From: Dehalococcoidia bacterium
GTDB lineage: Bacteria > Chloroflexota > Dehalococcoidia > Dehalococcoidales > Fen-1064
DNA length: 19,159 nucleotides
Reading direction: 5' to 3'
NCBI GenBank assembly: GCA_003153955.1
Contig: PMCB01000087.1
Coordinates: 1 to 19,159 of the forward strand
Part shown: positions 17,893 to 18,877 of the stretch, one piece after another
Numbering within the stretch: position 1 is the stretch's first letter
Layout of the letters: each line of letters opens with the position of its first letter
The notes under the pieces: generated by a model
Told to the model about the DNA's origin: nothing
Seen by the model: only the letters and a program-made list of their open reading frames with translations
The model's database searches: none
Made by a program: the position numbers and the translations under genes

Positions 17893-17922
17893 AACTTCTC
17901 CAATCCTTCATCCAGCTAATTG

Positions 17923-17961
17923 AGTCCTGTCATAATTTAAAGTTATGGCAGGACTTTTTTT
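17923..17961 (+). terminator. Intrinsic terminator of the nfu-like gene
   Basis: A 13-bp stem with one G-U pair (AGTCCTGTCATAA / TTATGGCAGGACT) and a 7-nt loop is followed by seven T residues, 30 bp after the stop codon. Confidence 0.93.
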
Positions 17962-18031
17962 GATGTATCAGCGTTAACATTGGGGCCGCTTGTTAGCATT
18001 TGTGAGCAACACAGACCTTGAATGAGGTAGT

Positions 18032-18163
18032 GCAAGTATTACTTGCATACTACAACTTGCCAGGCAAGTATTATACTTGCTCTATTTACTTATACTTGCC
18101 GTATACTTGCTTGCTTTTGTCTCCATTACTTGCTATTATTTAATGTGCAAGTAAATAACTTGC
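18032..18163. repeat. Array of ten ACTTGC/GCAAGT hexamers
   Basis: ACTTGC begins at 18041, 18055, 18075, 18094, 18105, 18128 and 18158. The complement GCAAGT begins at 18032, 18064 and 18147. That is ten copies in 132 bp. Several are paired: GCAAGT-N3-ACTTGC (18032-18046), ACTTGC-N3-GCAAGT (18055-18069), GCAAGT-N5-ACTTGC (18064-18080 and 18147-18163) and a direct pair 11 bp apart (18094-18110). Many are preceded by TAT or ATT. The last copy touches the ribosome-binding site of the 41-codon gene. It looks like a cooperative operator cluster. Iterons of a replication origin are an alternative. Confidence 0.8.
18111..18139 (+). promoter_or_regulatory. Putative promoter inside the hexamer array
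   Basis: TTGCTT (18111-18116) and TATTAT (18134-18139, 5 of 6) are 17 bp apart. One hexamer (18128-18133) abuts the -10 box and the pair at 18147-18163 lies directly after the predicted start near 18146. The -35 box is weak. Confidence 0.35.
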
Positions 18164-18175
18164 GGGAGGCATTTT

Positions 18176-18301
18176 ATGAAACAGGTACTGACAATCCAGG
18201 GAAAAGCAAAGAATGTTTTCAAGTACACGGCACTTCTGGCCAAACGGCAAGGTGACAAAAAATTAAAGGACATGATACCCCATACACAGGAATTACCTTA
18301 A
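18176..18301 (+). CDS. Unrecognised 41-residue basic protein downstream of the hexamer array
   Basis: A small gene not matched to a family I can name. The start ATG has GGGAGG (18164-18169) six nt upstream, the best spacing in this region, directly after the last hexamer. The product starts MKQVLTIQGKAKNVF and continues through KYTALLAKRQGDKKLKDMI to a short proline-ended tail. It is basic (eight Lys, one Arg against two Asp, one Glu). It reads as a short beta strand (3-8) followed by an amphipathic helix (about 11-25) and a second short helix. The strand-then-helix pattern recalls ribbon-helix-helix DNA-binding proteins or small division-inhibitor peptides of the MciZ kind, but neither is established. 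It could bind the array itself and autoregulate. Single-gene unit, no terminator seen. Confidence 0.6.
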   Translation: MKQVLTIQGKAKNVFKYTALLAKRQGDKKLKDMIPHTQELP

Positions 18302-18353: not shown

Positions 18354-18382
18354 TTGACAATTGCTTAACGCGATGCTAGTAT
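18354..18382 (+). promoter_or_regulatory. Promoter of the helix-turn-helix/coiled-coil gene
   Basis: A perfect TTGACA (18354-18359), a 17-bp spacer and TAGTAT (18377-18382, 4 of 6). The predicted start is near 18389 and gives a leader of about 20 nt that holds only the ribosome-binding site. No ACTTGC hexamer is present here. Confidence 0.6.
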
Positions 18383-18409: not shown

Positions 18410-18877
18410 ATGGCAAGAAAAGCGACCGTCGACCGGAATTTAGTGCTGCAATTATTAAAAGAAGGCAAGACTTCGCAAAGTATTGCCGCGCAGTTTGGTG
18501 TCAGTCGTCAAGCGATTGACTTATACCGAAAAGAATTTTTCCGTACCGGTCTTTTACAAACCAATGTTACTCCCCTACCGGTAACAACGCGCAATTCCTC
18601 GCCACCGATAACCGGTATGCCGGCGCCGGTACAAACCCAACCCGCCGGTTTACAACCCGAGGATGTTTCTCTGGATCAGATGATAGAACTGATGATTAAG
18701 GCTTTTGCTGCGCTAAAACGAATTTCCGAACTGGAAGCCGAAGCAGCCAAATACCGCAGTGAGCATGATGCTTTAATCGCGCAAATCGCGCAATTGGAAG
18801 AACGCGAGAAGAAACGCAAGGAACAGGAATCGCGCTGGCTGCATGCTCAAAATCCGGGTATCCTCACCAACCGTTAG
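18410..18877 (+). CDS. Helix-turn-helix protein with C-terminal coiled coil
   Basis: Probable DNA-binding protein, 155 residues, with no named family. The N-terminus holds a resolvase/transposase-like helix-turn-helix: NLVLQLLKEGKTSQSIAAQFG (10-30) and VSRQAIDLYRKEFF (31-44). A Pro/Thr/Ser-rich linker (about 54-82) follows. Residues 86-145 form a long charged helix with heptad-like spacing (IELMIKAFAALKRISELEAEA, ALIAQIAQLEEREKKRKEQE), likely a dimerising coiled coil. I chose ATG 18410 because AAGGA (18396-18400) is nine nt upstream; an ATG at 18401 touches that site. Its stop is 12 nt from the stop of the convergent histidine kinase. It could be a nucleoid-type or regulatory protein. Whether it reads the nearby hexamer array is only a guess. 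Confidence 0.75.
   Translation: MARKATVDRNLVLQLLKEGKTSQSIAAQFGVSRQAIDLYRKEFFRTGLLQTNVTPLPVTTRNSSPPITGMPAPVQTQPAGLQPEDVSLDQMIELMIKAFAALKRISELEAEAAKYRSEHDALIAQIAQLEEREKKRKEQESRWLHAQNPGILTNR

Follow-up and report, generated by a model that had tools for sequence, protein, structure and literature searches.

What does a dense array of a single hexamer do in front of a tiny gene, and which protein reads it? The question arises from a contig of a Dehalococcoidia bacterium (PMCB01000087.1), analyzed here as one window of 19,159 nucleotides. The initial annotation of this window reported ten exact copies of ACTTGC within 132 bp, in both orientations, and an array that runs into the ribosome-binding site of a small basic open reading frame. 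Both descriptions are confirmed: the copies far exceed what shuffled sequence produces, and the ribosome site (GGGAGG) and a 41-aa reading frame are both present. We propose, with a probability of roughly 0.57, that the region is a chromosomal module comprised of the array, the 41-aa gene and a downstream helix-turn-helix (HTH) gene, and that the HTH protein would bind the array, multimerize and repress the small gene.

The array and the gene it precedes

The features of the module in the window are as follows.

18032..18163, no strand assigned: array of 10 exact ACTTGC/GCAAGT sites, 9 of 10 fitting WWACTTGC
18111..18139, forward strand: putative promoter of the 41-aa gene, TTGCTT (18111-18116), 17 bp, TATTAT (18134-18139), from the sequence and a 12-locus comparison
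18147..18163, no strand assigned: pair of inverted sites, GCAAGT-N5-ACTTGC, close to where transcription is expected to start
18164..18169, forward strand: ribosome-binding site GGGAGG, from the sequence
18176..18301, forward strand: gene for a basic 41-aa protein (pI 10.1) of the array-type GKAKNVF[KR]Y family, with no known domain
18354..18382, forward strand: putative promoter of the HTH gene, TTGACA-17-TAGTAT with extended -10 TGC, from a promoter scan (10 of 12 positions matching)
18410..18877, forward strand: gene for a 155-aa HTH/coiled-coil protein, the proposed array binder, from Pfam HTH_7, co-occurrence and an AF2 model

The exact copies start at 18032, 18041, 18055, 18064, 18075, 18094, 18105, 18128, 18147 and 18158, giving successive start-to-start distances of 9, 14, 9, 11, 19, 11, 23, 19 and 11 bp; the recurrence of 9, 11 and 19 bp noted earlier holds on recount. 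In 20,000 dinucleotide shuffles of positions 17893-18175 (283 bp), the mean was 0.31 copies and the maximum 4, so that none reached the 10 observed, and the commonest hexamer of any kind had at most 7 copies in 2,000 of these shuffles. The whole window holds 14 copies on both strands, relative to 7.6 expected. Elsewhere in the genome of origin (2.09 Mb, 137 contigs, 83% complete), two same-strand copies no more than 30 bp apart occur at 2 other places, and the reversed control pattern at 8.

The inverted pairs within this region bear on RNA structure as well. Two of them score as terminator-like, accounting for two of the four terminator-like matches, and both lie upstream of the promoter. The pair at 18147-18163, directly before the ribosome site, could form a weak RNA hairpin. 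An RNA element was nonetheless rejected as an identity for the array, given no Rfam match over the gathering score and a fold z-score of -0.83 for the ribosome-site hairpin, little better than shuffles.

The 41-aa reading frame is a real gene under coding selection. Codon comparison of six pairs gave dN of 0.07-0.15 against dS of 0.67-2.4, and the gene was recovered at E<=0.1 from 10 of 101 genomes, namely its own, all four others of the genus (66-88% identity), three family members (44-48%) and weak matches in G006 and G010. A profile search of a large protein set returned 78 proteins at E<=0.01. The protein itself has no match in Pfam, NCBIfam, PADLOC or PHROGs and no PDB sequence match up to E 10. 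Among 32 relatives, five Pfam families have matches at E<=1, each in one to three of the proteins. Its AF2 model consists of one helix with a pTM of 0.39, too weak for a structure search.

Conservation of the array, the predicted binding site and the putative promoter

We compared 12 loci with an array-type small gene: the eight good matches of the 101-genome search, the additional public contig L033, and G490, G491 and G493 from a second family. The array lies upstream of the small gene in all 12, with 3 to 10 copies per 200 bp and 74 in total. The sparsest examples are G490 (3 copies) and G493 (4), the former with four copies of mixed orientation within 250 bp, and ACTTGC ranks first among hexamers in the upstream 220 bp at all nine loci compared. 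Site positions and orientations vary from genome to genome, which indicates that individual sites turn over while the motif stays. By alignment, a second conserved stretch (AGCATTTGCRAGAAACAGAGAGATTGAGTGAG-like; 17995-18031 in the window) is found 5' of the array in the genus-1 loci and L033. The latter is a 3.3-kb contig that is filed as Phycisphaerae and carries the whole module; it is probably a misbinned Dehalococcoidales piece.

Across 156 genomes of the order, which is Dehalococcoidales or close to it, a strict three-copy pattern occurs in 15. Ten of these are among the 11 genomes with the module (G490 is the sole exception), always at the module locus, and the other five are among the 145 remaining genomes, at a single place in each; for comparison, the reversed control pattern is present in 8 of the 156. 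The association of array and HTH gene has a Fisher p of 2e-11 when related genomes are counted as independent. The genome-wide cluster count thus yields one place per genome in the genomes searched, at this locus, and supports the earlier reading of a dedicated regulator-site array at the promoter of the small gene: for the array-type gene, the array is present at 12 of 12 loci and does not recur elsewhere in the genomes searched. In G029, tandem TTGTCAATNTTAACTTG units with three ACTTGC (L054 1500-1565; G029:C1:835294) occur in a genome with no small-gene match and are probably another system. Likewise, at least 120 stretches in viral contigs match the site pattern, and none of the 80 loci examined encodes either protein motif. 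Among these contigs, L133 near 5057 and L164 near 1335 carry 6 and 5 WWACTTGC per 200 bp with neither protein motif, and the L164 repeat is regular and coding-like.

Alignment of the copies also redefines the site. Two A/T bases precede 72 of the 73 copies with a full 5' flank, relative to a background of 46% (12 loci). On the 3' side, A/T stays at the background level (37 of 74 copies). The site is therefore an asymmetric 8-mer, WWACTTGC; the hexamer first described is real but too short. Such asymmetry, with WW on the 5' side only, is what would be expected of one HTH whose basic arm enters the minor groove, as in Hin and gamma-delta resolvase.

The clearest regularity of the array is its phasing to the putative small-gene promoter, one that a generic promoter scan did not call. 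In the window, the exact site at 18128-18133 touches the -10 box. All 12 loci have [AG]CTTGC before a -10 box of at least 4/6, the spacer from TTGCNN to the box being 17 bp, or 18 bp at one locus. This -35 rule came from a search for TTGC with 16-18 bp spacing, and in G490 another candidate ranked level. When every offset from 6 to 60 relative to a -10 box of at least 5/6 was tallied across the 12 loci, copies were found at offset 25 in 10, at 40 in 8, at 6 in 7 and at 50 in 5, and at all other offsets in no more than 3. The fixed-offset copies overlap the -35 and the extended -10, and an inverted copy starts 9-19 bp past the start of the -10 in 9 of 12 loci. Counting from the -10 box, sites would thus fall near -52, -37, -18 and +1. 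The TGC before the -10 box of the small gene may simply be an extended -10 element. By comparison, the argument from helical turns in the initial annotation is weak and only partly right: the commonest same-strand start-to-start spacings in the 12 loci are 15 (9 times), 19 (8) and 29 (4), of which neither 15 nor 29 makes up complete turns, and 19 just approaches two.

Taken as a class, the locus would qualify as a promoter operator array of the general kind, with repeated sites that lie over a promoter and are conserved together with it. Because these sites cover the -35, the extended -10 and mostly the start, repression is the most likely outcome of binding. The main rival is activation by the same HTH protein, which would occupy offsets 25 and 40 next to RNA polymerase and make up for a poor -35 contact. 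Two same-strand positions are strictly phased to the -10 box (10 and 8 of 12 loci), which suits such a role, as does a -35 that is only TTGC-like (TTGCAT, poor) next to a -10 box that is good in most loci. We consider activation rather unlikely, however, as the exact site touching the -10 box (7 of 12) and the inverted one near the start (9 of 12) would block polymerase.

The phasing also weighs on the idea that the array is a centromere- or origin-like site with which the small-gene promoter merely shares its sequence. A single cluster per genome where searched would suit this idea; short-site arrays do act as centromeres in pSM19035, according to the accessible part of the published account (PMC9499535), and on the G013 contig the GC skew is 0.08 over the 10 kb on one side and drops to 0.003 over the 10 kb on the other. 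Even so, that contig shows no change of sign, the 54-kb contig of G004 shows no change in skew, dnaA is on a different contig from the module in G000, G004 and G013, the sites are phased to one promoter, and the HTH gene is absent from 145 of 156 genomes. A role of this kind is highly improbable.

The candidate binder and a proposed mechanism

The initial annotation treated the array and the tiny gene as the unit. That pairing is borne out, but the downstream HTH gene belongs to the unit as well. The order of array, small gene and HTH gene is the same in all 12 loci (11 genomes and L033), and array-type gene, HTH gene and array co-occur in the same 11 of 156 order genomes, with L033 as one further public contig. 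In the 101-genome search, the HTH gene matches 8 genomes, exactly those with a good small-gene match; its profile finds 11 of 156 order genomes at E<=1e-8, the gene being absent from the other 145, and no further match at E<=1e-4 appeared in a spread of 393 class genomes (three module genomes included).

The listed start of the HTH reading frame (18401) is nine bases early, as relatives start at MARK (18410). The protein barely exceeds the cut-off for Pfam HTH_7 (24.2 bits relative to 23.8), has weak profile matches to Tn3 and gamma-delta resolvase (PDB 5cy1, 1res), over residues 142-174 of the former at E 0.03 and at E 0.5 for the latter, and continues through a proline-rich linker into a C-terminal helix of 60 residues, read as a coiled coil. 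In its AF2 model (pTM 0.31), an N-terminal HTH and a helix spanning residues 91-150 form two separate domains, with low confidence for the linker between them. A recognition-helix pattern is present in 113 and a MARK[AP] start in 111 of 121 HTH proteins, a set comprised of P0002 and 120 of the 148 matches from the protein-set search. PADLOC gave no match for the protein, and PHROGs only weak ones, the best an HTH DNA-binding family at 1.4e-4.

A natural contrast to the module is provided by a sister type of the small protein (M[EQ].F..xGKAKTVF-like), which occurs in the same order with no HTH gene beside it and has diverged from the array type, C-terminus included. None of 21 sister loci has two or more copies in the 250 bp upstream; 19 have none and 2 have one (G012:C2:16823 and the weak G014, with motif not shown, and the weak G457 and G096 are excluded). 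G013 encodes one small gene of each type, and its sister gene lacks any copy. With neither an HTH gene alongside nor an array upstream at the sister loci, the array follows the HTH gene, and these loci also show that small proteins of this kind occur independently of an array. The expectation that the small gene is never found without hexamers therefore holds for the array-type gene but not for its diverged sister. Upstream of the sister gene in G006 and G010 (L018, L019, L020), repeated TAAACCTTTAT-like units recur at about 11 bp, and we take these to resemble Pho boxes.

The same comparison speaks to autoregulation, in which the 41-aa protein would bind its own array. The protein is basic, adjoins the array in 12 of 12 loci and is about the size of the smallest known repressors. 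It has no Pfam or NCBIfam match, however, including none to a ribbon-helix-helix (RHH) family, and its N-terminal strand is mostly hydrophobic, from which the strands of ribbon-helix-helix proteins differ. With 0 of 21 sister loci carrying two or more sites and with the HTH protein as the better candidate, the earlier suggestion that the small protein is its own regulator finds no support, since the array tracks the HTH gene, and we judge it quite improbable. Both proteins are always present, so co-occurrence does not by itself separate the HTH protein from the array-type small protein as binder.

A third candidate is another resident factor, such as a NarL-type response regulator, which is often encoded nearby. 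By eye, a histidine kinase gene adjoins the HTH gene in G000, G002 and L033 and lies beyond selAB in G005, with a response regulator gene alongside the kinase except in L033, which is cut off; G003 has another receiver-like gene there. No such gene is seen beside the module in G004, G009 or G013, the contig of G001 ends, and this reading does not account for the coincidence with the HTH gene in 11 of 11 genomes. There is very little chance that such a factor is the binder.

We infer that the HTH protein binds the array, multimerizes on it and represses the small gene, and that its own expression is independent of the array. In this mechanism, one HTH would read one asymmetric 8-bp site: its recognition helix would contact ACTTGC, and the basic MARK arm would reach the A/T pair alongside. 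With a flexible linker and a coiled coil, subunits could fill several sites whatever their orientation and despite unequal spacing, and cooperative binding over the -35, the extended -10 and (at most loci) the start would shut the small-gene promoter off. The HTH gene, with a near-consensus promoter of its own, would be expressed without needing the array. That promoter is similar in most aligned relatives and differs in G013. The gap before the HTH gene has one or two exact hexamers in 6 of 12 loci and none in the other 6, the window among these, while ACTTGACA, a near-site fused to the -35, is found in 7 of 12. Self-control of the HTH gene through array-type sites should show as copies at that gene, and with exact hexamers in only half of the loci it is possible in some genomes only.

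As for the 41-aa protein, our guess is that it is either a regulated effector or a cofactor or antirepressor of the HTH protein. A fuller model would have a resolvase-type HTH, linker and coiled coil polymerize over an evolving cluster of single 8-bp sites into a dedicated nucleoprotein switch, with its main target, the microprotein, acting back as antirepressor or cofactor. This elaboration is speculative and, on balance, unlikely; if true, two tiny genes and an array would form a self-contained feedback device and a new class of single-locus regulator.

Genomic context and comparison with known systems

The module is apparently a long-standing chromosomal locus whose surroundings have been rearranged locally. 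By eye, its flanks contain CoA-transferase genes in the window, G004 and G013; dapF, an aminotransferase gene and hflX are near it in the window and G013, and nifU in the window and G004. A tRNA-Gly is nearby in G001, G002, G003 and L033. Flanking genes common to the window, G004 and G013 make inheritance look vertical. A mobile element was rejected on the same flanking genes and on the absence of HTH relatives from phages, plasmids and IMG/VR at the limits used. A defense system was likewise set aside, as PADLOC returned none for either protein.

A link to selenocysteine was also considered. In G004 and G005 the module is bordered by selAB (selA identified by eye), and tRNA-Sec is near it in G005, G009 and, by eye, G004. 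Because selB exceeds the cut-off in only three of the eight family genomes with the module (G004, G005 and G013, not G000, G001, G002, G003 or G009), this proximity is probably not functional and the link was rejected. In three genomes (L037, L041, L042), selAB and/or tRNA-Sec genes are next to or near the module.

Finally, the initial annotation knew of no described system with this layout, and we found none in the literature searched, which was mainly openly accessible. The module gives two uncharacterized protein families from uncultured Dehalococcoidales a shared, testable role and a binding-site prediction, all from sequence alone. Moreover, the number, order and orientation of sites vary while the motif and promoter phasing are kept, providing a natural series for the evolution of operator clusters.

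Three known systems offer partial likenesses. As in operator-bearing toxin-antitoxin operons, the module pairs two genes in a compact chromosomal unit, one of them encoding a candidate DNA-binding protein, and has sites lying across the promoter; unlike them, its HTH gene is second and has its own promoter, there is no sign of mobility, and Pfam, NCBIfam and PADLOC assign no toxin or antitoxin family to the module proteins. With serine resolvases, it shares an HTH_7 DNA-binding domain that scores just over the gathering cut-off. Unlike serine resolvases and invertases, the HTH protein lacks a catalytic serine recombinase domain (there is no Pfam match, and the model contains an HTH, a linker and one long helix); with a coiled coil in place of the catalytic resolvase domain, the protein was rejected as a recombinase.

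The third is the omega (ParB) system of pSM19035. According to the accessible part of the published account, omega is a ribbon-helix-helix protein with a ParA partner that recognizes clusters of 7-10 short AT-flanked sites (WATCACW), which are non-palindromic, occur in both direct and inverted orientation and overlap promoters, and it has low affinity for a single repeat and needs contiguous repeats for full activity (PMC9499535). Relative to that description, the present locus differs in being chromosomal, in same-strand sites that lie 9-59 bp apart rather than as contiguous heptads, and in a candidate binder with an HTH and coiled coil whose AF2 model is helical and not ribbon-helix-helix; no ParA was found among the 10 window proteins scanned with Pfam. 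The likeness is in the arrangement, in which short AT-flanked sites, direct and inverted, are clustered over a promoter. By analogy with what is accessible of that system, the array would work like the pSM19035 heptad arrays while being unrelated to them.
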